Shown here in pieces: positions 3,577-23,802 of a stretch of 35,931 nucleotides of DNA (its first letter is position 1; the number at the start of each line of letters is the position of its first letter). A program made the translations under genes and the position numbers. Under the pieces are notes generated by a model. The model ran no database searches. It saw only the letters and a program-made list of their open reading frames with translations, and had not been told where the DNA came from. The stretch comes from Nitrospinota bacterium (GTDB lineage Bacteria; Nitrospinota_A; UBA7883; JACRGQ01), in contig JAOUMJ010000028.1 of the NCBI GenBank assembly GCA_029881495.1, forward strand, positions 1 through 35,931, given 5' to 3'.

Positions 3577-4572
3577 CTACACTGCTTCCGCATTATCGTA
3601 TTTGCGATAGTAGAAGTAGCTCAATGAAAGTATCAGAATGGAAGAGAGAAGAAATGCGAACCTCTGGAAGATAATGAATGAAGCCGCATCCTGGTTTGAT
3701 ACACCCGAAAAAACGAGAATACCGAACCAGCCCCATTCCAGTATTCCAAGACTCCCCGGTGTAAAGCCGATTAGTCCAGCGATAAATATCGTAGGGGCGC
3801 ATATGAGCAACAGAAGCAAAGAAATGTCAATATTGAACGCAAGAGCTACAAAATAGCTTCTTGTCACAAGAACAAGGAATTTTAGCAAGCTCAGGTAATA
3901 GAGCTTTTTGCCAGTAGATGCGGAAATGGTTTTTGATTCTGTGTCCATCGTCAGGAAGGACGGTCTGTTCTTCCGGGATGTCATCGTGCATGCGATCTCT
4001 ATAAGTTTTTCATATGAAAAGAGGATGATGTTGTAAATGAAAAGCGGTTTTACCGAAAATGCTGCGAAAGAAATCATCGAAAGCAGGGCCATGGCCATTG
4101 CCAGCTCTTTCATTTCGAATTTGCCGGTCAGGAACATTGTCGAAGGGATAATGAATAAAAATAGAATGAAGAGGTCCATCAGCTGATCGAGCAGAACCGA
4201 GTATGCCCCAGCGCTAAGTGGTATGTTTTTATTAATCTTCAATGAGAGCGACCTTACTCCAAGCGAACTCAGGTTTTGAGACACAAAAAAACCGGATGTA
4301 ATCCCGAGCGCGGAATAATAGAAGAAAAAACCACGTCCGAAATCTCTTGCTCCTGTTTGGTCATAAATGATGCTTTTCCATTTTTCAGCGGTTATTAAAA
4401 AGACAATAGCAGTTAATACAATGATCCCTAACAATGGGAGTATCGAGATGGATGTCGATTTGCGGATTATCTCGTCAATTCCTACGTCGGAAAATACGAT
4501 GACTGATATGAACAGGGCTATACCTGTCACGAAAAGGAGGATGCTTTTTACGGTAGCTTTAAATTTGTCCAC
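3577..4572 (-). CDS. flippase-like integral membrane protein (LPG synthase TM region family)
   Basis: Polytopic inner-membrane protein of 331 residues with about eight hydrophobic segments. It resembles the lysylphosphatidylglycerol-synthase transmembrane region/UPF0104 family, whose members include lipid flippase domains and glycan-pathway proteins such as AglD. The most diagnostic piece is the C-terminal IGFTPGSLGILEWG, the family's proline-glycine 'PGSLGxxE' signature. No soluble LPG-synthase catalytic domain follows, so if active it is more likely a lipid or lipid-linked-sugar translocator or accessory than a lysyltransferase. It reads from a GTG at 4572, and no better start is visible. 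It is the last gene of the minus-strand operon, 35 bases after the formyltransferase. No ArnE/ArnF or Wzx homologue is visible in the window, which makes it the best local flippase candidate. That role is inference. Confidence 0.75.
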   Translation of the reverse strand: MDKFKATVKSILLFVTGIALFISVIVFSDVGIDEIIRKSTSISILPLLGIIVLTAIVFLITAEKWKSIIYDQTGARDFGRGFFFYYSALGITSGFFVSQNLSSLGVRSLSLKINKNIPLSAGAYSVLLDQLMDLFILFLFIIPSTMFLTGKFEMKELAMAMALLSMISFAAFSVKPLFIYNIILFSYEKLIEIACTMTSRKNRPSFLTMDTESKTISASTGKKLYYLSLLKFLVLVTRSYFVALAFNIDISLLLLLICAPTIFIAGLIGFTPGSLGILEWGWFGILVFSGVSNQDAASFIIFQRFAFLLSSILILSLSYFYYRKYDNAEAV

Positions 4573-4607
4573 TGCTTAATTTCGGGATTTGCTGTGATAC
4601 TCGTTCA

Positions 4608-5525
4608 TCATATTAATCTATTGCCCGCAAGGTCGAGTTTTTTCACCGCTGGCAGTACATTCCCATTATCGCCGCACGAGACCTCCAAGATCAGTAAATC
4701 CTCATCCAGGCAGCTTACTATAACGCCTTCGCCGGACTTGCCAAGGATTTCTCCTGGAATCCTATCGCTCTTGTTTCCTGTCAATTTTGACTTCAGGACA
4801 ACAATTTTTTCATTTTCAAGGTATGTAAAGGCGCCGGGTAATGAGGGGCCGTTTAGGGCTCTTATGAAATTGTATATCTGCCGGGCGGACATGGTTTCCC
4901 AGAAAATTCTGCTGTCTTCGGGATACCGTTTCTTGTAATAACTCCCATCGGATGAATTCTGTTTTTCTCTCTTTATCCTTTCGTTGGCGATATCTTCCAA
5001 CGTATTAACGAGCAGGCGCGGGAAGATTTCCAGCGTTTTTACATAGATGTCGCCAGCGGTATCTTCAGAGCCAATCTCATATGTTTCCTGTACAATGATG
5101 TCTCCAGTATCAATTCCTTCATCGACGAATATTATCGCGCAACCCCCCTTTTTCTCATCATTGATGATTTGCCAATTGATAGGTGAGCCGCCTCTGTATT
5201 TAGGAAGTAATCCACCATGCAGGTTGATCGTTCCAAGTCTGGGAATTGACAGTATCTCCTTTTTAAGTATTTTTCCGTAACCTGACAATATCATTAAGTC
5301 GGGTTGCTTTGAGCTTATCTCATCGATGAATGGGGATTTATTCACGCTGGCAGGAGCGTATACGGGAAGGTTCAGGCTGATGGCAAACCTGCGGATAAGA
5401 TTATTTTCAAGTTCCGATGCGGGGGCAGGGTGTACTACAACTGCCTCCGGTAAATACCCATTTTGGCAAATTTCCTCAAGGCAACGTAAACCGCGTTCGC
5501 CGTTGCCGAAATATATCGTCTTCAT
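4608..5525 (-). CDS. formyltransferase (ArnA N-domain/Fmt-like), probable sugar N-formyltransferase
   Basis: Cytoplasmic enzyme of the formyl-tetrahydrofolate-dependent transferase fold, 305 residues. The catalytic triad is visible: Asn101 and His103 in INLHGG, and Asp139 in GIDTGD. The 36-residue His-to-Asp spacing equals that of E. coli Fmt. The segment LLPKYRGGSPINWQI is the usual family block, and a C-terminal Fmt/ArnA-like subdomain follows. It could be read as methionyl-tRNA formyltransferase. However, it sits in a glycan operon with an aminotransferase, an ArnC-like GT2 and an ArnD-like deformylase, which argues for N-formylation of a nucleotide-linked amino sugar, as in the first half of ArnA. 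It follows the AP-superfamily gene by 30 bases. The exact substrate cannot be read from the sequence. Confidence 0.85.
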   Translation of the reverse strand: MKTIYFGNGERGLRCLEEICQNGYLPEAVVVHPAPASELENNLIRRFAISLNLPVYAPASVNKSPFIDEISSKQPDLMILSGYGKILKKEILSIPRLGTINLHGGLLPKYRGGSPINWQIINDEKKGGCAIIFVDEGIDTGDIIVQETYEIGSEDTAGDIYVKTLEIFPRLLVNTLEDIANERIKREKQNSSDGSYYKKRYPEDSRIFWETMSARQIYNFIRALNGPSLPGAFTYLENEKIVVLKSKLTGNKSDRIPGEILGKSGEGVIVSCLDEDLLILEVSCGDNGNVLPAVKKLDLAGNRLI

Positions 5526-5555
5526 CTGTTTGCTGTATATCCGTGGTTGGTTGTG

Positions 5556-7229
5556 CTACATGTAACCGAGATCCTTAAGCCTTTTCGAAATATCTTCCTT
5601 CTCCTCTTTTGAATAAATGTCCTGACCTTTTGGAGTCTTGGGTATCGAGGGTGTATCATCAACTTTGTCTGTTTCAGGTGTTTCATTTATCTGATTCTCG
5701 AAAATTTCTTTGATTATCCTTCCGTCTATTCCCTTTGGTACTGGGATGCCGAGTATTTTTAGTACGGTCGGGAAAACATCCTCGTCCTTTAGGTTTTGAA
5801 GATGTTGTGATTTTTTTATTCCATCACCTTTGCAGATGAATATACCGGAGTGATTGTGATGACCAGTAATGGCAAACGTATCGGTAATGGATCTATTTGA
5901 GTTGAAATCTAGGGTACCCAAAGCCTTGTATTCATAATTTTTTGTGTAAAAAAGGATGTCTTGTGCGGAATCGGTATAGTCTCCTGTGTAGATATCGTGC
6001 TTCAAGAAAACCTTGTCCACGATTCGTTCATCGCCTTTTTCATTTGTCAGCTCCAGCAGGTCGTTTTTGAGTCTTTCAAGGATATCCTTATCATTAATGG
6101 CACTTTTGTTGTTTCTTTTCCTGTTTAGGAATATCTGGGAAAAATTCCCCTTCGCAAATGCTATAGTCTCATTCCAGTTTACGTCACTGAAAGAGAGAAA
6201 CACGAAGCCTATCAATTTATTGTAGGAGGTGCTTAGCATGGGCATTCCCTGTTTGAATATGAAGAACCTGTTTGCAAGTTTATACATATTTTCCGGTGTA
6301 AAGCCGATATCGAACAGTATCTTCTTGATGCGAACCTTGGGCGTTTCCAGTAATCGTATATATCCTTTTTGCAGCAGCCATGTATTCAGGTGCACGAAAC
6401 CTGCAAGCCCCGAAAGGCCATGGTCAGACACGAAAAGTACAACAGATCGCTCGATGACCTTTAAGTAGATGTTTTGAATGGTGCTGTCCAGTTTTTTAAA
6501 GTATTCAAGAATTGCGGGCATATATCTGTCATGTAGGGAGCGGTTGAATTTCGGGTGCTCATCATCCAAAATGTGAAGCATCGAATGCTGGATATGGTCC
6601 AATGACCAGAAGTAGAGAATAAAGAGGTCCCAGTCGAGCCTATTGTCGATATATTCGAAGGCTTTCATTTTGTATTCCAGTTCCTCAAAGTAATCGTTCA
6701 AAACCGCGTCAATCCTGTTGTCAGCGTATGTAACGTTGTTAAATATCTTGAACCTGCCAATATCACTTTCCATCACTTCAATAAAATTTTCTGGATATGC
6801 ATACGCGTTCGATCTGCGAGGGGTGAAAATATGATCGGATACGATAATCCCGTTGACGGGATGTACCGGGTAGGTGATAGGCTGATTAAGAATGACTACC
6901 TTTTTCCCGGCCTTGCCGGCGTGATCCCACAACATTTTACCATCGACGAAGCTGGAATTGATCGGGTTAAAGTTCCCGTTGGCGTCCTGAAGGATAAAAT
7001 CGAAAATTCCATGTTTCCCTGGGTTCAGGCCGGAGAATATTGAGGTCCAAGCTGTCGGAGTAAGTGGAGGGTTTGTGCTTTCAAGCTCTCCTTTGGAACC
7101 GGATTCCATCAATTTGGATAGAAAAGGGATCACATTATACTTTTGTATCTTCTCAAGAAGGCTAAAGCTGGCACCATCAAGTGAAAAGATGAAAGCTTTC
7201 CTTTTAAAAGGTCTAATCTCTTCAGTCAT
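5556..7229 (-). CDS. alkaline-phosphatase-superfamily protein (type I phosphodiesterase/nucleotide pyrophosphatase-like)
   Basis: A 557-residue metal-dependent hydrolase or transferase of the AP superfamily, type I phosphodiesterase/NPP branch. A metal-ligand Asp18 lies in SLDGAS. The predicted nucleophile is Thr57 in LTPTAWTS, followed by the typical SGLNPGKHGIFDF block. Further metal ligands lie in WSLDHIQH and SDHG. No signal peptide is evident (it begins MTEEIRPFKRK), so a cytoplasmic location is likely. The C terminus is charged and ends LKDLGYM, a tail style common in this superfamily. There is no sulfatase C/SxPSR motif. The ATG at 7229 has an AAGGG-type site just upstream and overlaps the ArnD-like gene by 8 bases. 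Its substrate is unknown; a phosphodiester or pyrophosphate in the glycan or its lipid carrier is an inference from context. Confidence 0.85.
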   Translation of the reverse strand: MTEEIRPFKRKAFIFSLDGASFSLLEKIQKYNVIPFLSKLMESGSKGELESTNPPLTPTAWTSIFSGLNPGKHGIFDFILQDANGNFNPINSSFVDGKMLWDHAGKAGKKVVILNQPITYPVHPVNGIIVSDHIFTPRRSNAYAYPENFIEVMESDIGRFKIFNNVTYADNRIDAVLNDYFEELEYKMKAFEYIDNRLDWDLFILYFWSLDHIQHSMLHILDDEHPKFNRSLHDRYMPAILEYFKKLDSTIQNIYLKVIERSVVLFVSDHGLSGLAGFVHLNTWLLQKGYIRLLETPKVRIKKILFDIGFTPENMYKLANRFFIFKQGMPMLSTSYNKLIGFVFLSFSDVNWNETIAFAKGNFSQIFLNRKRNNKSAINDKDILERLKNDLLELTNEKGDERIVDKVFLKHDIYTGDYTDSAQDILFYTKNYEYKALGTLDFNSNRSITDTFAITGHHNHSGIFICKGDGIKKSQHLQNLKDEDVFPTVLKILGIPVPKGIDGRIIKEIFENQINETPETDKVDDTPSIPKTPKGQDIYSKEEKEDISKRLKDLGYM

Positions 7230-8160
7230 TCTGCCCTTTCAGCAAATCGAAATAATTGTTTTGTAAAAAATCTTCCTGGCAGGAGACATCACCGAATCCC
7301 CCGGGAACTCTGATCTGCGAAATACCATCAGCCTCTATATTCTCGTTCCGAATTGTATCGTAATACTGTCCCAGCGTGGTGAATTTATAGCCCGCGGATA
7401 GAAGTTCATCTACCGTGTTCTTGAAAAGTTCCCTTTCAAGCAGACCTTCGTAATAACCATGTATGACGAGCATATTATAGCTTTTATCAAGACATCCTTT
7501 TATTGTTTGTGGAATGCTTTTTTTTGGGATGCCGTATTGAACCAGTTCGTGTATGGCTGGCAAGGAGATAGGCAGTTCGACGACATTTTTTTCCTTGCCG
7601 GAAAATTTTGGTAGAAAAGGTTTGTTCCCGCGCACGTTCGAGGAATATTTAATATTCATGTTTTCCATGATGTCGTATAAAGGCTCTACGGTTCGCCAAT
7701 TCGGAGAACCCCAAAGCGAACTGTTGGTACCAAATATTTTATGATATTCGTTATTTGCCCTCGCAAATTCTTTTAACACGCCTTCAGAATTCAGAAGTTT
7801 CCAGTTATCAGCCCACCAAGAGTGGTCGTAACCATGCAGTCCCAGTTCATGCCCGCGCGCCTGGATATCTTTAAGTATGTCTGGATTATCCTTTCCGACA
7901 TGACTGACCGGAAGGAGTTTTCCCCTCAGCAGGAAAAGCGGACCAAAGGCCCATATCATTTTGAGCGGATTCATGCTTATTAATCTTTTGATATAGCCTT
8001 TTTTCCCTATCCTTTTTCCATGTGACGAGACTGTGTCCGGCCCCATAACTGAAAAAAAGGTGGCTTTAATGCCGTTCTTGTCGAAATAATCAAGGAGCCA
8101 TGGAACCCCCTTCCTTATGCAGAATGAAAAGTCTATATCAACTCTTAGCAATATATTCAT
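7222..8160 (-). CDS. ArnD-like polysaccharide deacetylase family protein (probable lipid-linked sugar deformylase)
   Basis: NodB/CE4-fold hydrolase of 312 residues. It aligns by eye with ArnD, the undecaprenyl-phosphate 4-formamido-arabinose deformylase. The opening MNILLRVDIDF matches ArnD's RIDVD start, with metal Asp8/Asp10. The zinc pair is His109 and His113 in ELGLHGYDH (ArnD: GLHAWDH). Later blocks also match: KYSSNVRGNKPF, ELPISLPAIHELV, and the final catalytic-region VIHGYYEG (ArnD: TIHAEVEG). This is closer to ArnD than to generic peptidoglycan or chitin deacetylases. The start at 8160 is preferred over an ATG at 8169 because AGGA at 8169-8172 is well spaced from it. It lies between the methyltransferase and the AP-superfamily gene. 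With the formyltransferase it implies that an N-formyl group is added and later removed. Confidence 0.85.
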   Translation of the reverse strand: MNILLRVDIDFSFCIRKGVPWLLDYFDKNGIKATFFSVMGPDTVSSHGKRIGKKGYIKRLISMNPLKMIWAFGPLFLLRGKLLPVSHVGKDNPDILKDIQARGHELGLHGYDHSWWADNWKLLNSEGVLKEFARANNEYHKIFGTNSSLWGSPNWRTVEPLYDIMENMNIKYSSNVRGNKPFLPKFSGKEKNVVELPISLPAIHELVQYGIPKKSIPQTIKGCLDKSYNMLVIHGYYEGLLERELFKNTVDELLSAGYKFTTLGQYYDTIRNENIEADGISQIRVPGGFGDVSCQEDFLQNNYFDLLKGQND

Positions 8161-8161
8161 G

Positions 8162-9085
8162 CTATTCATCCTGTTTTACGGCTTGAACAATATAGAAATT
8201 GAATGCAGGAACATAAACACCGAGCTTGTTGAAAGGGTAATGTTTGGCTATTCTCTTGAGAAGCGCAGAATCGAGTTGTGAGGCGAGAAACGATATTGAA
8301 TAGTAGGGAAATACTCGTTTAAAGGTTATGGTGCGAAAACCACATTTTTCCAGAACCGTTTTTATCCCTGTTCTGGTTGGAGCGCAGGTGATATGAACCC
8401 CTTTCTTTCTTTTTCTATATGTGTATATGCTGAAGATGCTGTTCATGTCGAGAAAATCCAGGAAGAGGGAGCCTCCAGGTTTCAATAGATGAAAGACTTT
8501 TCTGTAAACCTCTTCCGGTTCACGGAAATTCATGGAGGTCCCCCAAGTGAAAACGATATTGTAGGAACTTTTATCAAACGTGAGATCTTCAAAAAGCCCC
8601 AAAAACACCTTCATGCCAAAATTGTTCCTCGCGTGGTTTGCCATGTCAATCGAAGGTTCGACACCGGAAATATCGATTCTGTTATTAATGAAAGGGACTG
8701 CCGAGAATCCTGCCCCTGAGCCTATCTCCAATACCTTGATGTTCTGCAAAATTTCAAAGCGAGTACTTTTGGCCATAAGGTGGTACCGCCTGGCGGCTTC
8801 ACGCATATACTGTGATTCCTGTTCGGAATAAGAAGAATAGATATATTCATCCTTATCGTCGGTTCCCCAATACGCCTTGCTGTTGTAGACTGCGGAGAGT
8901 GAATCAAATGTTAATAGCGGATTTTGGAAAATCGCTCCGCAATATTTACACCGGTCATATGACACTTTGTTTACTTTGAATTCGGCAAAATATGCAAATG
9001 AATGCTCTTTGCTCCCGCAAAGAGGACATTTTCTTTTTTCGCTTTCCACATGGATCGCAAAACTATCCTTATGGGTGGTTGTCAT
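8162..9085 (-). CDS. class I SAM-dependent methyltransferase with N-terminal zinc ribbon
   Basis: Predicted small-molecule or sugar methyltransferase, 307 residues, cytoplasmic. The N terminus has a four-cysteine zinc-ribbon-like module (Cys20, Cys23, Cys46, Cys49 in CPLCG and CKYCG) of the type that precedes many nucleotide-sugar and natural-product methyltransferases. The Rossmann SAM-binding motif I, VLEIGSGAG, lies around residues 118-126. Later motifs include IVFTWGTSMNF and a post-motif LLKPGGSLFLDFLD. It overlaps the upstream FemAB-like gene by 4 bases (ATGA) and its stop lies one base before the ArnD-like start, so it is in the middle of a coupled operon. The position methylated (C, O or N) is not predictable. 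The zinc module and setting make a sugar intermediate a reasonable guess. Confidence 0.85.
   Translation of the reverse strand: MTTTHKDSFAIHVESEKRKCPLCGSKEHSFAYFAEFKVNKVSYDRCKYCGAIFQNPLLTFDSLSAVYNSKAYWGTDDKDEYIYSSYSEQESQYMREAARRYHLMAKSTRFEILQNIKVLEIGSGAGFSAVPFINNRIDISGVEPSIDMANHARNNFGMKVFLGLFEDLTFDKSSYNIVFTWGTSMNFREPEEVYRKVFHLLKPGGSLFLDFLDMNSIFSIYTYRKRKKGVHITCAPTRTGIKTVLEKCGFRTITFKRVFPYYSISFLASQLDSALLKRIAKHYPFNKLGVYVPAFNFYIVQAVKQDE
8169..8172 (-). promoter_or_regulatory. ribosome-binding site deciding the ArnD-like start
   Basis: AGGA on the minus strand lies eight bases upstream of the ATG at 8160. The alternative in-frame ATG at 8169 has its nearest AGG only two bases away, too close to serve as a normal site. 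This, and alignment with the ArnD N terminus, favours the shorter protein. Confidence 0.45.
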
Positions 9086-10077
9086 TTCCCCAGTTCTCCA
9101 CGGATAAACGGCCCGATAAGGTTGGCAATTCCTTCAGGGAGGTAGTTGCGCCAGATGTGCGAGAAAAGTTCTATCTTCCTGTTTCTTGGGTCTATATAGT
9201 CCTTTGTTTTTCCTTTTATGATGTAATGAACTTCTATCGGTTCATATTTTGTCCACTTCTGTTTGTAATTCCATACTCCTGTTCCTTCACGGGAAACACC
9301 AAAGTCGAAATAGCGTACGCCTTTATTTTTAGCGCTCTTTATGGCATTCATGAAAAGGTAGGTTGTTGCATTTAGGTTTTTAAGGTTTTCATAGCTTGCG
9401 CCGGCGAAATACCTGGCGCAGTAATTTGTTTGGTCTGTAAGTACGAGAATAGATGCAACAAGTTTGCCGTCAAGAAGTGCGTGATGAAATTCGGCGTTCT
9501 CTCCCAGCAGCTTTGAAATATTCTCGAAAAAAGCCCTGGAATGAGGAGGTGTGCCGAGGTTTTTCATTGTGTGCCTGTGCATCGCGTAATATTCATTGAT
9601 CATTTTTCCAGGGCCGGAATCTATCCGGATTGGTCTGTTCTTTTTTAATATGCGCTTTATATTATGATGTAAATTGCCTTGCAGGCTTTCGAGGCTTTGC
9701 GACAGGTCGATTCTGAATGTATAGTTACGGTAGATCGTATCGTAATTGAATTTTTTCGCTTCCTCAGCAACATGCTTGCTGACACCTTTCAACTCAACGT
9801 AATCCAGTTTTTCGTTCATCAATGTTTCATCGACGAACAAGAAAAAATTTTCAATTTGCTTGATATTGCAAGTGGATGATACAGGGCCTGCCTCGTCGCT
9901 GAACGGGAGCGACAGGAGAAACCTTTTTCGTAGTATACGGTTGTTGACAATCATTCCAGGAGCGAGAATCCCAAGGTCTGAACCATATCCATACGACATA
10001 TCATGATATCCGTAGGTCTTGGCTAATATCTCCTTCCATTCTTCGCTGTGGTAAACGGTTATTTCATTTCCGTGCAT
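9082..10077 (-). CDS. FemAB/GNAT-family transferase (BioF2-like)
   Basis: Soluble 331-residue protein of the FemAB-like branch of the GNAT fold, which transfers aminoacyl or acyl groups to amines. Supporting blocks are the central LHHNIKRILKKNRPIRI, which resembles the conserved start of the BioF2/FemAB acceptor domain. There is also a C-terminal GVRYFDFGVS followed by an aromatic-rich NYKQKWTKYEP stretch, the usual 'YxFxxKxxWxxxP'-like end. The N-terminal half is less conserved. Such proteins recur in exopolysaccharide loci. It overlaps the methyltransferase by 4 bases and follows the amidotransferase by 3. A role in acylating or aminoacylating the amino sugar made by this operon fits, but donor and acceptor are unknown. 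Confidence 0.75.
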   Translation of the reverse strand: MHGNEITVYHSEEWKEILAKTYGYHDMSYGYGSDLGILAPGMIVNNRILRKRFLLSLPFSDEAGPVSSTCNIKQIENFFLFVDETLMNEKLDYVELKGVSKHVAEEAKKFNYDTIYRNYTFRIDLSQSLESLQGNLHHNIKRILKKNRPIRIDSGPGKMINEYYAMHRHTMKNLGTPPHSRAFFENISKLLGENAEFHHALLDGKLVASILVLTDQTNYCARYFAGASYENLKNLNATTYLFMNAIKSAKNKGVRYFDFGVSREGTGVWNYKQKWTKYEPIEVHYIIKGKTKDYIDPRNRKIELFSHIWRNYLPEGIANLIGPFIRGELGK

Positions 10078-10080
10078 ATT

Positions 10081-11979: not shown

Positions 11980-11985
11980 ATCTGT

Positions 11986-13002
11986 TTAGATAAATGTCCT
12001 TTCGTGGCTCGAGCTTTCATAACAGTATTCGCAGGTGGGATTGAACGGGAACTTATCAGTAAAATATTTTCTATGACTGAGAAAATACTTTTTATTCCAG
12101 AATTGATCGTCGGAGAGGTTGCCAAACTTCCTGTCGGGAGGGACTATGCTGGAGCAAGGAGCTAAAATTCCATTTTTGCCGACAAAGACAACTGTGTATA
12201 GATCGTAGCAAAAACGTTCCTTGATGTTTCTTTTCAAAGGAGCAGGGAACATGATGTTTAGGCGTTTGCCATACTTGCGATCCAGGTCTTTGAAATATTC
12301 GAGGATTTCAATATTGTCGTCAAAAATGCACAGGTTTTCGTTTTCCTTGCTTGTAGCAATAAAATTTTGGAAGCATACCTGCTTTAAATTTAGCTGCTCC
12401 GACATTTTAATTACTTCGGTCATATAATCCAGGGAATTTTGTTCAGTAGTTACATATCTAGCAAGAGCAATATCTATGTCAAGATTAACGCTTCGTAATA
12501 ATTCTACATTGCGTATCTGATCTGAGATATTGCCATCATATAGACTAACTTGTAAAGATGATAAATGAGAATTTTTAAATTCATCCAATCGTTTTTCAAT
12601 AAGTAAACCATTACTAGGGAACATGGTAAGTTTCTTGTTGCTATGTGCTATTTCGATAAACTGAAAAATATCTGGATGGATCAATGGCTCGCCGCCAACG
12701 AAGGATAAGCGAAAAGCATTTTTCAATCTTGGGTGTTGTAGCATAGAGGAGAATTCCTCAATATTCATCTGCTGTGAAAGGAATTCCTTCTTATTTATAG
12801 TCTGGTTCCAGCAGAAAGGACATTCAAGGTTGCAATGATAGGTTATATATACACCGATACTCAAAGGGTCATGGCTGACTGCCGGAGAGAAGCTGTTTGA
12901 GAAAAAACGCATGGAATATTTCATGGTGTTTAAAACCTGAGGAACAGTCGGGGAGAGCTTTAAAAACTGTTTTGTTAAAGCGTATAAGGCAGAAAGTTTC
13001 AT
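11986..13002 (-). CDS. radical SAM protein with SPASM-like C-terminal cysteines
   Basis: Radical SAM enzyme of about 338 residues. The [4Fe-4S]-binding CxxxCxxC motif is Cys57, Cys61 and Cys64 in HCNLECPFC. The glycine-rich FVGGEPLIHP follows, the typical SAM amino-group contact. The C terminus has further cysteines (CSSIVPP and TCEYCYES), suggesting an auxiliary cluster of the SPASM/twitch kind. I choose the ATG at 13002, directly after the stop of the upstream radical SAM gene. An in-frame ATG at 13044 would add 14 residues and overlap that gene by 41 bases. Its composition is AT-richer than its neighbours. The reaction is unknown; SPASM enzymes act on peptides and small molecules, including sugar substrates such as aminoglycosides. 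Its setting points to modification of a glycan precursor. Confidence 0.82.
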   Translation of the reverse strand: MKLSALYALTKQFLKLSPTVPQVLNTMKYSMRFFSNSFSPAVSHDPLSIGVYITYHCNLECPFCWNQTINKKEFLSQQMNIEEFSSMLQHPRLKNAFRLSFVGGEPLIHPDIFQFIEIAHSNKKLTMFPSNGLLIEKRLDEFKNSHLSSLQVSLYDGNISDQIRNVELLRSVNLDIDIALARYVTTEQNSLDYMTEVIKMSEQLNLKQVCFQNFIATSKENENLCIFDDNIEILEYFKDLDRKYGKRLNIMFPAPLKRNIKERFCYDLYTVVFVGKNGILAPCSSIVPPDRKFGNLSDDQFWNKKYFLSHRKYFTDKFPFNPTCEYCYESSSHERTFI

Positions 13003-13003
13003 T

Positions 13004-14503
13004 TTAATCTGCCAAGCGTGAAGAAATAGTCTTAAACAGTGCATATTCGAAGAGGAATCCTGAAAATCCCTGATTTATTCTAAATTTGGCGATAGGTTTA
13101 TATAAGATCTTCGCTATCTTGAATGCAAGTTGTGCACTCCATGAATACTTTTTAAGATATGCTTCCCAGTTGCTTAAGGCGTACGAGCCTATCTGGAGCA
13201 TCTTGATATATCTGTCGTATTCCGGTGTATACCATGGGAAATAGATATCTCCTTCCTGGTCGAGGGCTCTCCATTCCTCGCTTGTAGTCGGTGGTTCAAA
13301 ACCGTTTTGCCTGGCAAGCTCGTACATTTCAGAACCGGGATATGGAATAAGTTTGCCGGGATCGAAAATTATGCAGTTCGGGTTATCTTCGGATAGTTTC
13401 AGCATGAATTTCCCGGTCTCTTTCAAGTCGTCGATTGTCTCAGTGGGGATTCCGCATAGTATGTTATACATAGGTAGGAGTTTAGGGTACTTCAACATTT
13501 CCTTGTTTACGAAAAGTGAATCTTCCACAGATATCCCTTTTTTCATGAGGTCTAGCATCCTTTGCGAACCGCTTTCCAGGCCGATATGCAAGGTTTCTAC
13601 GCCGACGTCTACAAGAAGCTGGAAGTCTTTCGCCTTCATCTTTTTAAGTTCGTTTACTCTTATACCACGAATGCCCAGTTTTACCTTCAGATTTCTGTTA
13701 ATGAGTTCCCTGGCGATGCCTTCGAAATGGGAAAATTTTACAAACGTATCATCGTCGTAAAAATAGATGGACTCTATGCGATATTCCCGAACGAGGTGTT
13801 CGATATGGTCAGCGACATCGACAGCTTCCTGAGGAACCCATTTTTTCCTGATGTCCTTGTACCAGACAGGAGAAATGCAAAAGGAGCATTGATAGGGGCA
13901 GCCGCTCGCCGTATATATTGGAAATATCCTTTCATTTTGAATGGAGAAATATTTTTCCAGGTTGTTCTCAACCAGGAAATATGGCAAATCCCTGAATTTG
14001 AAATTTTCAAATTCGTTATGGATCTCTCCTATAATTAGTTCGCCGTTTTTTTTGTAACATAGCCCATTTATAGAATCCATTTCCTCTCTGTCTTGCATTA
14101 GGAACTCAACGAGTTCCCTTAAAGAATTCGATGCGTAGCCTCTAATGCAGTAATCGACGAACTCGTAATTCAGTGTATCTTCAGGCATGATGGTAGGGTG
14201 CGCACCGCCCCATACCACCGGTATGTTAGAAAAACCTTTCACGATTCTGGATATCTCGAAAGCTCCGACAATTGGTATCCCGCTCATAACGGAAATGCCT
14301 ACCATGAGGACGTCCCCATTTTTTAGGGTTTCATTAAGATATTCGCGCCATCCGGGATTAACCCTGCAATCGATGATTTCAACTGTAAGTCCCTTGATAT
14401 TGACGGACTTTGCAGCTGCATATATAAGGCTTATCGGTACATTGATGACGAACGAACCGGTAAATCCCAATTCAGGGTAAAGTAGAAGTAGCCGCTTGTT
14501 CAT
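13004..14503 (-). CDS. B12-binding-domain-type radical SAM protein
   Basis: 499-residue protein with the layout of cobalamin-dependent radical SAM enzymes. The N-terminal Rossmann-like domain (about 1-140) contains VGISVMSG and VVWGGAHPTIMPED, characteristic of that class. The radical SAM core follows with SGCPYQCSFC (Cys202, Cys206, Cys209), and later has a LHIGLESGSQRMLDLM block. I see no DxHxxG cobalamin-ligand motif in the N-terminal domain, so if it binds B12 it may do so base-off without a protein histidine. Family members methylate unactivated carbons or rearrange natural-product and lipid substrates. The ATG at 14503 has GGAAG seven bases upstream. It lies 3 bases after the GT2 gene and one base before the second radical SAM gene. 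Confidence 0.87.
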   Translation of the reverse strand: MNKRLLLLYPELGFTGSFVINVPISLIYAAAKSVNIKGLTVEIIDCRVNPGWREYLNETLKNGDVLMVGISVMSGIPIVGAFEISRIVKGFSNIPVVWGGAHPTIMPEDTLNYEFVDYCIRGYASNSLRELVEFLMQDREEMDSINGLCYKKNGELIIGEIHNEFENFKFRDLPYFLVENNLEKYFSIQNERIFPIYTASGCPYQCSFCISPVWYKDIRKKWVPQEAVDVADHIEHLVREYRIESIYFYDDDTFVKFSHFEGIARELINRNLKVKLGIRGIRVNELKKMKAKDFQLLVDVGVETLHIGLESGSQRMLDLMKKGISVEDSLFVNKEMLKYPKLLPMYNILCGIPTETIDDLKETGKFMLKLSEDNPNCIIFDPGKLIPYPGSEMYELARQNGFEPPTTSEEWRALDQEGDIYFPWYTPEYDRYIKMLQIGSYALSNWEAYLKKYSWSAQLAFKIAKILYKPIAKFRINQGFSGFLFEYALFKTISSRLAD

Positions 14504-14506
14504 GGC

Positions 14507-15430
14507 TTACTTCCTTTTTTTTACAATTAGGTCGGCAAGAATTCCAAATATTAGAAGTTGAAATCCGATGATCATTGTAACAAGCGAGACATTTTGCATG
14601 AACAGGCCGGATATCGACCAAGCGTAGATATTTGCCAGATGTGCAAGGAAAAAATAGAAAAACGAGAATAATATCGAAAATATACCCAACAATGAAAAGA
14701 CCTTTAACGGATTTCCGAATATCAGGAGGCGGAATATGTTGGTGAATACATAAAAAGGATATTTAAGGTTTACGAACGATTGTCCAGTAGTTCTTGGATG
14801 AAAAACGACCGGAACTTCAAAGTACCGCATATGTTTGAAGCTTGCGTCGACAAGGAGTTGTTGAGGAGGATTATAGTCGCCATGGATGTCAAAAATTGCG
14901 AGGTATTTGCGGTTAAAAGCCATCATACCCGTTTGCGCATCGGAAATTTTATAATATGTCAGCTTGTTCATGAGGTAGGTGAAAAACCTGTTGCCCAGAT
15001 ACCTGACTAGAGGCATTTTGTAATTGATCTTCCCGGCAAACCTTGACCCCCAGCAAATATCTGCATTATCACGTATGATCGGCATAATTACTTTTTCAAT
15101 ATCGGCAGGATCATGCTGGAAATCCGCATCCAGCTTTATCGCTATGTCAGCTCCCATTTCATAGGCTGTTTCCATGCCGGTCCTGGTAGCGGCCCCCAAT
15201 CCGAGGTTCGCTGGATGGTTTCGCACGGCAACACCTTTTGATATGGCAATTTCCTCAGTTTTGTCTGTACTGCCGTCATTCACAAGCAGTATTTCGATCT
15301 CGTATCCGGCGGGTATGGTACGTTTTTTGTCGTATAGCTCTCTAAGCTTATCGATAAGAGAGCCTATAGTTTCCTCCTCGTTTAGGGCCGGGATGAATAC
15401 TATGACCTTTTTAGGGCTTTGGTCGTTCAA
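14507..15430 (-). CDS. GT2 glycosyltransferase, ArnC/DPM1-like, with C-terminal membrane anchor
   Basis: Family 2 glycosyltransferase of 307 residues. The nucleotide-binding N terminus has VIVFIPALNEEETI and ILLVNDGSTD. The metal-binding motif is LDADFQHDP, and acceptor-side residues include DAQTGMMAF and HPRTTGQSF. Two hydrophobic segments at about residues 235-300 anchor it in the inner membrane. This layout is that of polyprenyl-phosphate sugar synthases (DPM1, GtrB, ArnC), which move a sugar from a nucleotide to undecaprenyl phosphate. It starts at TTG 15430, supported by AAGGA five bases upstream, and overlaps the aminotransferase gene by 20 bases. Together they suggest that the amino sugar made by the aminotransferase is loaded onto the lipid carrier by this enzyme. 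Confidence 0.88.
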   Translation of the reverse strand: MNDQSPKKVIVFIPALNEEETIGSLIDKLRELYDKKRTIPAGYEIEILLVNDGSTDKTEEIAISKGVAVRNHPANLGLGAATRTGMETAYEMGADIAIKLDADFQHDPADIEKVIMPIIRDNADICWGSRFAGKINYKMPLVRYLGNRFFTYLMNKLTYYKISDAQTGMMAFNRKYLAIFDIHGDYNPPQQLLVDASFKHMRYFEVPVVFHPRTTGQSFVNLKYPFYVFTNIFRLLIFGNPLKVFSLLGIFSILFSFFYFFLAHLANIYAWSISGLFMQNVSLVTMIIGFQLLIFGILADLIVKKRK

Positions 15431-16553
15431 AATATTCCTTTATTGTGCTTACAATGTAGTTGAGGTCATTTTCTTCCATCCCTGGGAACATCGGTAAAGT
15501 AAGAATGTTATTTGTAACATTCTCCGTAACCGGCAGTTTTGAATATTTGTATTCGGAATAAGCCGGGTGCAGATGAACGGGTGGGTCGAAATGAACAGAA
15601 GCTTCAATTCCCCGTTCCTTGAGGTAAAAAACGAAATTGTCCCTTTCGCCATTTTTCACTTTCAGTGTGAACATCTGAAAAACGTGCCTGCAATCGGCAT
15701 TTTCCACAGGCAAATCAATTTCTTCCACATCCCTTAAATTTTCGATTAAATGATAGCTGTGTTGGCGGCGCAAAGCATTCATTTTGTCGACCTTCTTCAT
15801 CTGCTCGACTCCCAGTGTTGCGAGAATATTGCTCATCCTGAAATTATACCCCGGTACTACAGCAGCCCTGTACCAACTATTTTTGCTTCCTGTTCTTTGA
15901 GCAGTCGTTTTATCTATGCCATGCCCAAGCAGTGTCTTGACCCTGCTCGCAAGAGCATCGTCATTTGTTGTTAGCATGCCGCCTTCTCCGGTCGTGATAT
16001 TTTTCGTCGGGAAGAACGAATAACATCCGATCCCCCAAGAACCGCTCTTCAGGTTCTTGTATGTCCCGCCGATGGTCTCGGCGGAATCCTCTATCACGAG
16101 CAGTTTATGTTTATTCGCGATATCCATTATCCTGTCCATGTCACAGCATTGCCCTGCATAGTGGACGGCCATTATTGCTTCGGTCTTGCTGGTTATATAG
16201 CTTTCAAGCAGAGACGCGTCAATGTTGCAGTCATTGTAATTGATATCCACAAAAACAGGTTTTGCGCCGGCAGTAACAATGGCGTTTGCCGAGGCAACGA
16301 ATGTGAAACTTGGTACAAGAACCTCCCCCTTTATGTTATTTGCGAGAATTGAGAGGAAGAGCGCCGAAGTGCATGAATTCATGGCTATGGCATTTTTGAC
16401 CCCTAGGTATTCGGCGAACGAATTCTCAAACTCGATGTTCTTGGGGCCATGCGTGAGCCACCCGCTGTTTAAAACCTCTTGAACGGCTCTTGATTCCTCT
16501 TCACCGATGTATGCCTTGCAGAGAGGTATTATCTTTCCATTATTAGGTAGCAT
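15411..16553 (-). CDS. DegT/DnrJ/EryC1/StrS (ArnB-type) PLP aminotransferase
   Basis: Nucleotide-sugar aminotransferase of about 380 residues that converts a keto sugar to an amino sugar using glutamate. It has the family opening IPLCKAYIGEEE and the GWLTHGP substrate block. Asp156 in IEDSAET contacts the PLP pyridine nitrogen, and Lys184 in FFPTKNITTGEGGM forms the PLP aldimine. I prefer the ATG at 16553; in-frame ATGs at 16568 and 16595 are possible. The gene overlaps the upstream SDR gene by 11 bases and the downstream GT2 gene by 20. The order SDR, aminotransferase, ArnC-like GT2 reads as keto-sugar formation, amination and lipid loading. Which carbon is aminated cannot be told from the sequence. 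Confidence 0.9.
   Translation of the reverse strand: MLPNNGKIIPLCKAYIGEEESRAVQEVLNSGWLTHGPKNIEFENSFAEYLGVKNAIAMNSCTSALFLSILANNIKGEVLVPSFTFVASANAIVTAGAKPVFVDINYNDCNIDASLLESYITSKTEAIMAVHYAGQCCDMDRIMDIANKHKLLVIEDSAETIGGTYKNLKSGSWGIGCYSFFPTKNITTGEGGMLTTNDDALASRVKTLLGHGIDKTTAQRTGSKNSWYRAAVVPGYNFRMSNILATLGVEQMKKVDKMNALRRQHSYHLIENLRDVEEIDLPVENADCRHVFQMFTLKVKNGERDNFVFYLKERGIEASVHFDPPVHLHPAYSEYKYSKLPVTENVTNNILTLPMFPGMEENDLNYIVSTIKEYFERPKP
15436..15440 (-). promoter_or_regulatory. ribosome-binding site supporting a TTG start of the GT2 gene
   Basis: AAGGA on the minus strand ends five bases before TTG at 15430. The protein has no nearby ATG or GTG, and the conserved VIVFIPALNEEE block begins only nine residues in, so this site fixes the unusual start. 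Confidence 0.5.
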
Positions 16554-17517
16554 TGTTGAACGCTTCATAAAATTCGATATATTTCTTAAGACCATCTTCC
16601 AAGGAATATTTTGGCTCGTAGTTCAGAAGGTCCCTGGCTTTCTGAATTGAAAGCGCGCCTCTCTTTGGTCTGTAATGCTGCATCGGTTTTTTCACTATCT
16701 CAATGTTGGGAAAGTAACCCTTTATAAGATCAATAAGGTCAATGAGAGATCTCCCTTCTCCGCGAGTGATATTGAATACCTCGTTTTCGCCAGAGTCTGA
16801 AAGTGCAACCTTCACAAAGCCCTGGGCTGTGTCTTCAACGTATGTAAAATCCAGCACGTTATCCTCACCGCCATAGATAGTAAGTTTTTCACCTCGGATC
16901 GCCTTTTCTATAAGTATCTGGCATACACGGCGGTTTACGTCAGTAGGGCCGTAAACTGCAGATGGTCGAACTATGGAATACTTGATACCATACCTGCGGC
17001 TGTATGTTTCAGTAAGGATTTCCCCGGCAAGCTTTGTCCCGCCATAAACGTCCTTCGGTGCCTTAGGATGCTCTTCCAAGGCGGGGATGCTCTTGAAATC
17101 ACCATATACCATGCTGGAAGAGGTGTACACGAACCTTTCCACAAAATCGACTTCATGGATTGTATCGAGAAAATTCAGTGTTCCGTTTAATATGCTACCG
17201 GTAGTTTCTTCGGTATGCGTAAAGCTTAGGTCAGCTATGGGAAGCGCGGCAAGATGTATTATAACCTCTGGCTTGTGTTCCATGATAACTTTTCGTACGT
17301 CGTTCTTATCTCTGGTATCGCCACGAACAAAAGTTACCTGATCCTTTATGCCGCGAAATCTATATTCAAGATGTTTCTGATAGGAGCTTTCGAATGGAGA
17401 TACGTACTGGATAAAAGCATCGTAGACAATCGGTTTCTGTCCATTTTCAAGCAAAATGCGGCAAATATTGGAACCAATAAACCCTGCTCCGCCAGAAATT
17501 AAAACTTTCTTCGACAA
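16543..17517 (-). CDS. NAD-dependent epimerase/dehydratase (extended SDR)
   Basis: Extended short-chain dehydrogenase of 324 residues acting on a nucleotide sugar. The NAD-binding motif is GGAGFIGSN at the N terminus. The catalytic YxxxK is YGGTK, preceded by the Ser region TSSSMVYG, and RPSAVYGP and a C-terminal LNYEPKYSLEDGLKKYIEFY are typical. It is not obviously the ArnA decarboxylase; it resembles UDP-glucose 4-epimerase and 4,6-dehydratase/reductase relatives equally well. It starts at TTG 17517, with GGGGAT about seven bases upstream and no alternative nearby. It heads the tightly overlapping part of the operon and is separated from the upstream membrane protein by 116 bases that hold a promoter candidate and a hairpin. 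Confidence 0.88.
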   Translation of the reverse strand: MSKKVLISGGAGFIGSNICRILLENGQKPIVYDAFIQYVSPFESSYQKHLEYRFRGIKDQVTFVRGDTRDKNDVRKVIMEHKPEVIIHLAALPIADLSFTHTEETTGSILNGTLNFLDTIHEVDFVERFVYTSSSMVYGDFKSIPALEEHPKAPKDVYGGTKLAGEILTETYSRRYGIKYSIVRPSAVYGPTDVNRRVCQILIEKAIRGEKLTIYGGEDNVLDFTYVEDTAQGFVKVALSDSGENEVFNITRGEGRSLIDLIDLIKGYFPNIEIVKKPMQHYRPKRGALSIQKARDLLNYEPKYSLEDGLKKYIEFYEAFNNAT

Positions 17518-17527
17518 CCAGTTATCC

Positions 17528-17544
17528 CCACAAATTCATTGTGG
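17528..17544 (-). other. small hairpin in the leader of the SDR gene
   Basis: A perfect 6-bp inverted repeat, CCACAA / TTGTGG, around a 5-base loop. It lies ten bases before the TTG start of the SDR gene on the minus strand. There is no T-tract after it on that strand, so it is not a terminator for the preceding gene. It may affect translation of the TTG-initiated gene; function is unproven. Confidence 0.35.
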
Positions 17545-17572
17545 AGCTTTTATACCATAATTTTAATGAAGT

Positions 17573-17601
17573 ATCTAATAAAATAAATGACATGTTTTCA
17601 A
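17573..17601 (-). promoter_or_regulatory. sigma70-like promoter candidate before the SDR gene
   Basis: TTGAAA (17601-17596), a 17-base spacer, then TTAGAT (17578-17573) on the minus strand, in an AT-rich gap. It could drive the SDR-to-flippase gene block independently of the upstream membrane-protein gene. It was matched by eye only; AT-rich sequence yields such matches by chance. Confidence 0.3.
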
Positions 17602-17633
17602 TGAATTTTGACTAAATCCAGTCGAATTTGCTT

Positions 17634-19289
17634 TTAAAAGGCATTTACCAAATGGATATAGCTGGCATACTTGGTGAGGCCGAAAATAAAAATGAACTGG
17701 ATTATGATTGAGACAGCGAGTGGAGCAGAAACAATTATTTTTACGGCACGATTGAACCGTGTTTTCATGATCCATATCGACCAGGAGATAGCAATAGCTA
17801 TGTTCCAGTAATGAAATGAAAAAGTCCAAAACCTAGTCATGTTCCAGTCTGGCCAGTTAAAGCCGAGAAAAAGGAACCCTACTGTGATATCGGCAAGAAA
17901 TATTCCACCAATAAACAGCGAGTGATTTAGAAAAGAAACGGATCTATCCTTGGCAAGAAAAATCACTAAGGGCATAAATATTAATATATTCCCTGTTTGA
18001 AGAAACAGCTTTATCCAAGACCCGATCTGCCCCAGAGGAAATGTTTCGCTTTCCCACTTTACGAAGTATAGTGTTTCTTTTTGAAGAAGTTTCAGGTTAT
18101 CAGTGAAATACACATTGTAAAAGTCCAAGGTCCATTTAAATGTAATAGAACTGACGGCAAGAAGAAGAATACCAGTTAGAAAAACTAACTTATATTGAGA
18201 GGTATTTTCTTTTATCAGTTTATGGTATGTCAGCATCAGGGAAAGAATCAATGCAGAGGAGATATATCCGAAACCTGTTCCATTTTTCATAAAAAAAACC
18301 ATTAAGAGAATAGGGGCCAAAAGAGTAAGTGTACTAGTTTCTTTTTTTAGAAAATAGAAAAATCCGAAAAGAAAGAAAGTCCCTGTCATGAAATCGATGA
18401 TGATGTCAGGGTTTTGTATGAGCGTGGTTGGATATCCGAAAGAGATTGCGTTGCCGAACGCAAGCCGGTAGCTTGAGCTGTATTCGGTGGGCGAAACATT
18501 GTTCATAATGAACAACCATTCTGAGAGATTTGAAAGCATCAACCAGCTTCCGGAAAAAATATAGATTGATGCGCCAGCGAATCCAAGAAGCGCTTTGCCT
18601 GTTTCATAGTTAATGAAAAGAAAAATCATCGAAATTATGGAAAGCTTGAAAATCACGAGCTCGAAAAGTTGAAGGAGAGGGTATGCCATATCCAGTGATA
18701 AAAGTCTAAAAACAGATAGAATGCTTGGATGCTTATAGTGAAATGGTCTTAGTGGCTCTTCAAGAGGGAAAAAATTCAAAGGAAAATAGATACTTTCATG
18801 AATGGTAAATAGGGATGTTTCGTTATCAAGTTCTAGTTTGTCGATTCCAATTGTGCCTAACTCGGCAGTATTCATGACCGGAAGATTTCCGTATTTAATT
18901 GCATCGGCAATAACCATATGAGATTCTACATGCCCGATACCGATTTTCAGGTGAATGAAAAATATAATAAGAGCAGTTATGGCAAAGAAAAAGAAGGAAG
19001 AAGCGAAGTTCTGGTTACAGAATCTAATGCTGACAAAGGCGATGTCCTTCTTCAGAAGATAGAGTGCAAGAAGCAGCAAGAAAGCAAATGGTAAATAGGA
19101 GTGAAATAATGAGATCGAGTAGTAATATGTCAAGGCGGTAATCTCGAGGCCAATGCAAAAACTGACAATCAGCAATGGTATTACAGGAAGATTCTCAAGA
19201 CGGCTTTTACCGACAAGTCTCGAGATGGTATATAATCCGACAAGAGTCAGTGGTATTAAGACCAAAAGCAACTTGATTAAAAAAAGCAT
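17634..19289 (-). CDS. polytopic membrane protein, possible GT-C-type glycosyltransferase
   Basis: A 551-residue, strongly hydrophobic protein with roughly a dozen membrane segments. I do not recognise the exact family. After the first few helices comes a loop with an acidic residue and the sequence GHVESHMVIADAIKYGNLP. This resembles the first extracytoplasmic loop of GT-C transferases (ArnT/PMT type), where an acidic residue acts in catalysis. A further large loop carries LDNETSLFTIHESIYFP. These features suggest a lipid-linked-sugar-dependent glycosyltransferase, but a polymerase or unknown membrane role is not excluded. The ATG at 19289 lacks an obvious ribosome-binding site. It is AT-rich compared with the leu genes. 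It is the first minus-strand gene of the operon and is divergent from another GT-C-like gene. Confidence 0.65.
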   Translation of the reverse strand: MLFLIKLLLVLIPLTLVGLYTISRLVGKSRLENLPVIPLLIVSFCIGLEITALTYYYSISLFHSYLPFAFLLLLALYLLKKDIAFVSIRFCNQNFASSFFFFAITALIIFFIHLKIGIGHVESHMVIADAIKYGNLPVMNTAELGTIGIDKLELDNETSLFTIHESIYFPLNFFPLEEPLRPFHYKHPSILSVFRLLSLDMAYPLLQLFELVIFKLSIISMIFLFINYETGKALLGFAGASIYIFSGSWLMLSNLSEWLFIMNNVSPTEYSSSYRLAFGNAISFGYPTTLIQNPDIIIDFMTGTFFLFGFFYFLKKETSTLTLLAPILLMVFFMKNGTGFGYISSALILSLMLTYHKLIKENTSQYKLVFLTGILLLAVSSITFKWTLDFYNVYFTDNLKLLQKETLYFVKWESETFPLGQIGSWIKLFLQTGNILIFMPLVIFLAKDRSVSFLNHSLFIGGIFLADITVGFLFLGFNWPDWNMTRFWTFSFHYWNIAIAISWSIWIMKTRFNRAVKIIVSAPLAVSIIIQFIFIFGLTKYASYIHLVNAF

Positions 19290-21332: not shown

Positions 21333-22574
21333 TTAAAGTATCAAATCAGCGATTTTCTCAACATGGAATGGCTCCGTTATCCTGTCATCTCTGGTAGAAG
21401 AGATAATAAATGCATCGTCCTGGGTATGCATTCCTCTGAAATGTCTTTTGCCGTACAGGCCATCAACAGCAACTAGTGATTTAATGTCGTATCCTCTCTC
21501 TCCAATTGCAACCAGATCAGGGGCTCTCGATGATTCAGGTCCGCGAAAAATATCATTGCCATCCAAAATGCGCATAATTGGCGACATGCTTTCCGTTTCA
21601 AGTTTTAAAAGGCCTTCACGGATATCCGTTTTGATCTTTTCTACATCCGAAGGATTTACCCCGCCGCTTGGAAACCGATCTTTTGAATTTATGTAAATTC
21701 TTCCCGGATCAAGGGCAAAGGCCTTTGAGTCAGGATTTATTTCCATTATTGTTTTCGGATCTGTGGAGTTGAATTCTAGAAATCCGTTCTCCTGTAGCCA
21801 TCGGTTAATGTAAAATTCGGTTTTCAAGGGGCAGAACCCATGATCAGAATGAATATATACGGGTTGCGATCCTGCGATCTTCTCGAGAATTCTACCGATA
21901 GAATCGTCAATTCGGCGATAAAATTCGGTGAAAACGCCGTGATATTTATGCGATGCGTCATCCCATGCATCAAAAAGAAAATGGTTTAGCCTGTCTGTCT
22001 CCGTAAAGACGAAATAGAAAATATCCCAATCTTCCAGCTCCCAGGCATATTTAAAAAATCTGTTGCGTGCTTCAAGTGTCGCAAATAGGTCGTCCATAAA
22101 AATATCTATGGATTCATGGGCAAGGTTTGAGTCCACATCCACACGATAGTCCATTGATCTTAATTTCGGGATCAGTGATGCAGGGTAAACTGAACGCTCC
22201 AGGTCAAGGGCAACAAAACCTGAGACCAAAAGGCCATTCTCGATCTTGGCTGGAAATGTCTGTGGAACATTTATTATGGCGGCTTTCCTTCCCGTCCAGA
22301 ATGGTGATGTCTTCAAATCATTGAAATTGGGAAATCGAAATTCGTAATTGGCAGGATTGACCTCGATAAAACCGAAAATCCCATGCTCGCCAGGGTTTTT
22401 CCCGGTGATGACACTGCTCCAGGCAGTAGACGAAACATCTGGAATCGAGGACTCCATCCTGACAAAAGTTCCATTTTCTAAAACGCTGTTAATATTTGGT
22501 AAAATTCCCTCGGATGAATATTTCTTGATCAATCCGAAGGGCACTCCATCGAGCCCTAATATCACACTACCCAT
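21333..22574 (-). CDS. alkaline-phosphatase-superfamily protein (type I phosphodiesterase-like), second copy
   Basis: A 413-residue AP-superfamily enzyme, shorter than the copy at 5556. The metal Asp9 lies in GLDGVP. The nucleophile position aligns to Ser48 in VSSTAWSS, where the other copy has Thr57. The block TGKNPGEHGIFGF follows, and metal ligands are in TETDRLNH and SDHGF. There is no signal peptide and no C/SxPSR sulfatase motif. It starts three bases after the cysN stop, so it is translated with cysD and cysN. This pairing with sulfate activation makes a sulfate- or APS-related role possible, though a phosphodiesterase acting on glycan precursors is equally compatible with the fold. 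The substrate is not determinable here. Confidence 0.83.
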   Translation of the reverse strand: MGSVILGLDGVPFGLIKKYSSEGILPNINSVLENGTFVRMESSIPDVSSTAWSSVITGKNPGEHGIFGFIEVNPANYEFRFPNFNDLKTSPFWTGRKAAIINVPQTFPAKIENGLLVSGFVALDLERSVYPASLIPKLRSMDYRVDVDSNLAHESIDIFMDDLFATLEARNRFFKYAWELEDWDIFYFVFTETDRLNHFLFDAWDDASHKYHGVFTEFYRRIDDSIGRILEKIAGSQPVYIHSDHGFCPLKTEFYINRWLQENGFLEFNSTDPKTIMEINPDSKAFALDPGRIYINSKDRFPSGGVNPSDVEKIKTDIREGLLKLETESMSPIMRILDGNDIFRGPESSRAPDLVAIGERGYDIKSLVAVDGLYGKRHFRGMHTQDDAFIISSTRDDRITEPFHVEKIADLIL

Positions 22575-22577
22575 TGA

Positions 22578-23801: not shown

Positions 23802-23802
23802 G

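Follow-up and report, generated by a model that had tools for sequence, protein, structure and literature searches.

A thirteen-gene glycan operon of a Nitrospinota bacterium holds candidates for a proposed Arn-like cycle of N-acyl addition and removal, acting on a different amino sugar

The window analyzed here, 35,931 nucleotides of a Nitrospinota bacterium (assembly GCA_029881495.1, contig JAOUMJ010000028.1), is one whole contig of a 2.82-Mb draft genome that is 97% complete. Between asd, which ends at position 3507, and a plus-strand membrane gene starting at 19483, it carries a block of 13 minus-strand genes (3577-19289) in which every step of the Arn pathway has a candidate, and none of these candidates belongs to the corresponding Arn equivalog. 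We propose, as a reading that we hold to be evenly balanced, that this operon runs an Arn-like cycle in which an N-acyl group is added and then removed, and that it does so on a different amino sugar and is not an Arn pathway. The Arn order is to aminate the sugar, formylate it, load it on undecaprenyl phosphate, deformylate, flip and transfer it (review PMC12748117). Likewise, the short-chain dehydrogenase/reductase (SDR) SDR1 and the aminotransferase DegT would produce a nucleotide amino sugar other than UDP-4-amino-4-deoxy-L-arabinose (UDP-Ara4N), the formyltransferase FT would formylate its amine, and the family 2 glycosyltransferase (GT2) would transfer the N-formyl sugar to polyprenyl phosphate. 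The putative metallo-deacylase DEF, with its changed pocket, would then deformylate the lipid-linked sugar, leaving delivery of the free amino sugar to the flippase-like protein and the polytopic transferase. What the data show are the genes with their families, their packing in an operon, the clade of FT, the fold of DEF as that of ArnD, and catalytic residues that are intact in both enzymes. The identity of the sugar, the lipid-linked substrate, the action of DEF on the product of FT and the last two steps are what we infer.

FT combines the two domains seen in ArnA_N and Fmt (Formyl_trans_N and Formyl_trans_C, PF02911), and the catalytic triad N101, H103 and D139, which an earlier note made from the sequence alone had pointed out, is intact. 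Scores alone cannot assign the protein: a search of the PDB gave 141 bits for ArnA and 135 bits for E. coli Fmt. FT could be placed by a tree of 62 sequences, where it formed a clade with sequences from three other genomes (G120, G155 and G179; support 100/100); it lies outside the Fmt clade (99/97), in which the Fmt of the genome itself (C1) joins that of E. coli, and outside the ArnA_N clade from arn operons (99/95). Because it falls in this third clade, FT is a sugar-type enzyme, neither Fmt nor ArnA. A second Fmt is ruled out by the tree. Nor is FT the genome's only Fmt, an objection that the earlier note had foreseen, as separate Fmt and PurN are encoded elsewhere in the genome.

The deacylase DEF found ArnD as its best NCBIfam model (NF011923, 136 bits), with PdaB next at 36 bits, and the ArnD model covers its residues 6-298, bearing out the claim that it aligns with ArnD along its length. 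The only sequence match in the PDB was ArnD (8t0j, 104 bits), and the AlphaFold model of DEF (mean pLDDT 92.7) had the same entry as best fold match (E 7.6e-24, TM 0.76/0.88), the next CE4 protein following at E 1.2e-11. By model, PDB and fold DEF thus groups with ArnD and not with the peptidoglycan or chitin deacetylases, and a role as one of the latter was ruled out. At the same time it stays below the ArnD equivalog cut-off (136 vs 382 bits), and in a tree of 87 sequences it sat at the base of the family on an end branch so long, at 4.79 changes per column, that no neighbour could be assigned to it. DEF is an ArnD-fold protein and an outlier of its family. It is the sole NodB-domain protein of the genome, so that no other ArnD is available there, and it keeps the metal and catalytic positions D11, D13, H112, H116, R180 and H237. 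Judged by these residues DEF should be a working metallo-deacylase, with an altered pocket.

The enzymes expected to make and load the sugar depart further from Arn. SDR1 carries the motif SSSMVYG where 4,6-dehydratases and decarboxylases carry T[SD]E; its best models are RmlB, LegB and GalE, it is 60-66% identical to its homologues in G120 and G155, and SSSM[VI]YGDF is common to those relatives. By motif, SDR1 is neither a decarboxylase nor a dehydratase, and ArnA_C was not found in the operon, so the statement that there is no recognisable decarboxylase holds. Because a TDE-type dehydratase is encoded on contig C6 of the genome and rmlA and rmlC lie inside the window, dTDP-4-keto-6-deoxyglucose may be available. 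DegT belongs to the family proposed for it, with ArnB only second-closest: its closest PDB entry is a perosamine synthase, and it scored 319 bits against PseC and 293 bits against ArnB, below the ArnB equivalog cut-off of 631, which places it, as far as models can tell, nearest to perosamine/QdtB/PseC-type enzymes. GT2, previously described as ArnC-like with a membrane anchor, is indeed a polyprenyl-phosphate glycosyltransferase with two C-terminal transmembrane (TM) helices; the likeness to ArnC was not borne out, as AglJ (121 bits) and PpgS (92 bits) score higher than ArnC (56 bits, cut-off 529).

Two membrane proteins are candidates for the last steps. The protein at 3577 is flippase-like, as had been said, and belongs to LPG_synthase_TM/TIGR00374; it is not a counterpart of ArnE/ArnF. 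A flippase-like gene follows FT in G120 too. LPG_synthase_TM-sulfatase fusions were seen at L261:6986-10237, L263:11175-14363 and L266:10481-13702, and in the window the flippase-like gene and the phosphodiesterase gene AP1 stand apart as two members of a single operon. The polytopic protein at 17634 has about 10 predicted TM helices; its description as GT-C-like found no family match, and it has no Pfam or NCBIfam match and no relative in 385 genomes.

The genes of the block are tightly packed: 12 of the 13 (3577-17517) are separated by gaps of at most 35 bp or overlap by 4 to 53 bp, and the thirteenth lies 116 bp upstream of them. Transcription runs from the polytopic membrane protein through SDR1, DegT, GT2, the B12 radical S-adenosylmethionine (SAM) protein, the SPASM radical SAM protein and the AsnB-type amidotransferase to the FemAB/GNAT protein, the methyltransferase, DEF, AP1, FT and the flippase-like protein (Table 1). 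The block is probably an acquired low-GC island, because its GC content at third codon positions is 0.41-0.50 vs 0.65-0.73 in the flanking leuCDB-asd. Across a comparison set of about 400 genomes the same operon was found nowhere else in those searched, and a DEF homologue occurred in none of 23 other genomes of the source phylum. The seven genes on which the earlier note built its case are intact reading frames at their positions and in the families it named, and its genes, families, FT triad and DEF alignment held up; the likeness to ArnC did not.

Table 1. Genes of the block and sites of the C-terminal tail discussed in the text (positions in the window unless a locus is named).
Feature	Position	Strand	Evidence or remark
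Flippase-like membrane protein	3577..4572	-	LPG_synthase_TM PF03706 72 bits; TIGR00374 49 bits, over cut-off
FT, predicted sugar N-formyltransferase	4608..5525	-	Formyl_trans_N + C; triad N101/H103/D139; own clade
AP1, alkaline-phosphatase-superfamily (nucleotide pyrophosphatase/phosphodiesterase (NPP)-like) phosphodiesterase	5556..7229	-	PF01663 123.5 bits; C-terminal ..RLxxLGYM
DEF, ArnD-fold N-deacylase, candidate deformylase of polyprenyl-phosphate sugar	7222..8169	-	ArnD model; fold
SAM-dependent methyltransferase, N-terminal CxxC pairs	8162..9085	-	Pfam Methyltransf_25
FemAB/GNAT-type acyl or aminoacyl transferase	9082..10077	-	PF13480; TIGR03019 124 bits, below cut-off
Asparagine-synthase-type amidotransferase	10081..11979	-	PF00733; TIGR01536 over cut-off
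Radical SAM/SPASM protein	11986..13044	-	PF04055, PF13186
B12-binding radical SAM protein	13004..14503	-	PF02310, PF04055
GT2 polyprenyl-phosphate glycosyltransferase (AglJ/PpgS/DPMS type)	14507..15430	-	two C-terminal TM helices
DegT/ArnB/PseC-type sugar aminotransferase	15411..16595	-	PF01041 395 bits, over cut-off
SDR1, NDP-sugar epimerase-like SDR	16543..17517	-	motif SSSMVYG
Polytopic membrane protein, candidate lipid-linked sugar transferase	17634..19289	-	~10 predicted TM helices
Tail ..RLxxLGY[LIVM] sites, window	5556-7229, 23803-24606		
Tail ..RLxxLGY[LIVM] sites, other loci	L233:3200-3805; L262:4575-5210; L266:8013-8687; L265:9517-10197; L291:8178-8810; L276:9649-10212; L261:6986-10237		

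The partners of FT are best seen in the related genomes. FT accompanies SDR1 and DegT in all four genomes of its clade (the source, G120, G155 and G179), and SDR plus DegT is the only set conserved with FT across the genomes compared. It adjoins their homologues in G155 and G179; in G120 the homologues of SDR1 (60% identical) and DegT stand at the end of a short contig and FT at the end of another, followed by flippase-like, B12 radical SAM, FemAB and methyltransferase genes, all four of them families represented in the window operon as well. Furthermore, clusters in G201, G020 and G046 that match that of G179 (IDH-DegT-SDR1-x-NeuB) have a GNAT acyltransferase where G179 has the formyltransferase. 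From these neighbourhoods it can soundly be concluded that FT puts an N-acyl group on what SDR1 and DegT make. The cluster IDH-DegT-SDR1-(GNAT or formyltransferase)-NeuB is conserved at L145, L168, L169 (which ends inside NeuB) and L171, mostly with AsnB and a PP-loop amidotransferase, and reads as a nonulosonic-acid-like pathway whose N-acyl donor enzyme differs from one lineage to another.

Several observations weigh against coupling FT to DEF in one cycle. Only one of the four FT-clade genomes has an ArnD-like gene; G120, G155 (86% complete) and G179 have none, so FT can do without DEF, and the co-conservation of the two genes, on which the earlier note had set store, is contradicted. DEF replaces T14, G17, G48, F59, G157, D207 and E239. 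Conservation of these seven residues in 85 other family members is 98-100%, and because DEF has lost them its substrate may differ from that of ArnD. ArnC and ArnD-family pairs occur at L030, L057, L058 and L092 without an ArnA-type formyltransferase on the locus (accompanied in L030 and L057 by two ArnT-like proteins), and in the genomes of L030, L057 and L058, which were searched, the only formyltransferase found was Fmt. Since ArnC and ArnD can occur without a sugar formyltransferase, the ArnD family name does not prove deformylation, and these four loci are candidates for deacetylase versions of the Arn scheme. The proposed scheme assigns no role to AP1, the methyltransferase, the FemAB and AsnB proteins or the two radical SAM proteins. 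Finally, the N-formyl sugars that are known retain their formyl group; one example, which goes with leg-type SDR/DegT genes, is 5-N-formyl-legionaminic acid (PMC6137143). In sum, for a different amino sugar made by add-then-remove, two of the objections raised in advance fell away, on the deacetylase clade and on the only Fmt, and the one on co-conservation stood.

Most of these points would also fit an explanation that we consider rather unlikely though a serious possibility, in which the operon does two separate jobs: the sugar of SDR1, DegT and FT would keep its N-formyl group, as N-formyl-perosamine or N-formyl-legionaminic acid does, and DEF and GT2 would start from an N-acetyl sugar and turn it into a polyprenyl-phosphate amino sugar, on the model of the N-acetylgalactosamine (GalNAc) deacetylase NaxD for lipid A galactosamine. 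The recurrence of FT with SDR1 and DegT in three genomes without an ArnD-like gene suits it, as do the altered pocket of DEF, the existence of ArnC and ArnD-family pairs without a sugar formyltransferase, and a GT2 nearer to AglJ and to PpgS, the polyprenyl-phospho-GalNAc synthase, than to ArnC. It must, however, account for one tightly packed operon that holds FT, DEF and GT2 together, and for the fact that the nearest family of DEF is by far ArnD, whereas NaxD belongs to another, the YdjC family. The known systems on which it leans are matched in part: like the N-formyl sugar pathways (perosamine WbkC, VioF, QdtF, N-formyl-legionaminic acid), the operon combines an SDR, a DegT and a formyltransferase predicted to act on a nucleotide amino sugar, but FT has a C domain of ArnA/Fmt type, and the operon also encodes an ArnD-fold deacylase and a polyprenyl-phosphate GT2. 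With the FlmF/NaxD-type galactosamine and PpgS-type GalNAc systems it would share the loading of an N-acyl sugar on a lipid followed by removal of the acyl group, and a related type of GT2; unlike them, its acyl donor enzyme is a formyltransferase and its deacylase has the ArnD fold.

A repurposed DEF, acting on a nucleotide sugar, on an N-acyl group from the FemAB/GNAT-type protein or in some other role, seems improbable to us: its very long branch (4.79 changes per column), the many changed family-invariant pocket residues and the many extra tailoring enzymes of the operon would agree with it, but the metal and catalytic residues are all kept and a polyprenyl-phosphate GT2 lies in the same operon. 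A true but diverged L-Ara4N lipid A pathway is hardly credible, for although DegT, FT, GT2 and DEF are distant homologues of ArnB, ArnA_N, ArnC and ArnD, the window has no ArnA_C decarboxylase and no recognisable ArnT, SDR1 lacks T[SD]E, FT lies outside the ArnA clade, GT2 is not ArnC and every Arn model falls far below its cut-off; a true arn operon was ruled out, there being no decarboxylase and no Arn model over its cut-off.

Measured against the Arn (Pmr) system as a whole, the operon has in common with it a DegT, an FT with the same triad and both domains, a polyprenyl-phosphate GT2, an ArnD-fold deacylase, and, in the same operon, a candidate flippase and a polytopic protein. It differs by its lack of a decarboxylase, its AglJ/PpgS-type GT2, an FT outside the ArnA clade, the changed pocket of DEF, a flippase of another family and six extra tailoring or accessory genes. 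The absence of an ArnA fusion, which had been remarked on, is true here and not distinctive, as many of the arn operons compared carry ArnA_N and ArnA_C as separate reading frames.

The add-then-remove cycle proposed for the operon stays plausible because of a compact cassette, its strongest support, on a 4.8-kb contig of Bacillota bacterium GPS1B09 (L026), where an SDR, a DegT, a WecD-like acetyltransferase, a PpgS/AglJ-type GT2 and an ArnD (231 bits) stand in one run. The search of that genome found Fmt-like and PurN-like formyltransferases and no sugar formyltransferase. This cassette has the same functional order as the window operon, with acetyl for formyl; it shares with the window the set of SDR, DegT, N-acyltransferase, AglJ/PpgS-type GT2 and ArnD, and differs in having the WecD-like acetyltransferase instead of FT and an ArnD nearer to the canonical one (231 vs 136 bits). 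A broader idea, which we put forward tentatively and with somewhat more doubt than belief, is that N-acyl gating on polyprenyl phosphate is a general, exchangeable module, with formyl here and acetyl in L026, used for sugars unrelated to L-Ara4N and lipid A, in which an N-acyltransferase would mask the amine for loading by GT2 and an ArnD-fold deacylase would then unmask it.

A scan of genome contigs gave 80 ArnD loci, most of them in arn operons, and for 78 of the 80 E. coli ArnD is a nearer relative than DEF. In Cloacimonetes 4572_55 (G294; L175:460-2436) ArnC is fused to a formyltransferase with an intact NLHA motif, and ArnD lies on another contig. An ArnC-type GT2 fused to a formyltransferase domain that has lost the motif was seen in TA06 (L022:7623-9170), the genome of which also has ArnD; ArnA_C was not seen on the stretches read in either (L175 and L022). 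ArnD-like coding sequences also occur in two phage records, OR851169.1 (labeled Salmonella) and OQ572407.1 (labeled Pseudomonas), possibly as host DNA.

Among the accessory genes, AP1 points in another direction. Its AlphaFold model (pLDDT 87) has ENPP/NPP proteins as best PDB folds, and its invariant residues are D18, D211, H215, D269, H270, H458 and Y556. Relatives were found in 58 of the 384 other genomes searched, and most of those whose ends were read finish in ..RLxxLGY(L/I/V/M). Five AP1 neighbourhoods contain an adenosine 5′-phosphosulfate (APS) kinase with an extra C-terminal extension and the same ending, an extension that E. coli CysC does not have, and a 3′-phosphoadenosine 5′-phosphosulfate (PAPS)-reductase-type protein and the LPG_synthase_TM-sulfatase fusions end in the same tail. 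Counting all open reading frames of at least 150 aa in the loci, with overlapping loci counted repeatedly, 98 ends carry the tail vs about 1 expected. The tail ..RLxxLGY[LIVM] is thus common to unrelated proteins encoded close together, and may be a tag by which they dock in a sulfate-activation complex. Elsewhere in the window (21333-24606), a unit of three genes encodes the NPP-like AP2, a CysN-like GTPase and a CysD-like protein, with no APS kinase in the window; as listed, the reading frames of CysN and CysD share 95 bases. The CysD-like protein (23803-24606) ends in LRALGYM, an ending that may be inherited, since E. coli CysD ends in KKRQGYF. The tail common to AP1, APS kinases, the PAPS-reductase-type protein and the sulfatase fusions is a hint of a link between sulfate activation and both AP1 and AP2, and of an operon glycan that may be sulfated.

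The usual answer to why formyl is added in the Arn pathway and then removed stays inside lipid A biology. If the proposed cycle is true, a second, unrelated amino sugar would be made by the same cycle, one lineage using formyl and another acetyl, and the gate would be a reusable device that can be tested away from polymyxin resistance. Should the formyl group be kept, the operon would still have brought to light a new clade of N-formyltransferases acting on sugars, along with deacylases that have the ArnD fold and lie outside the Arn pathway.

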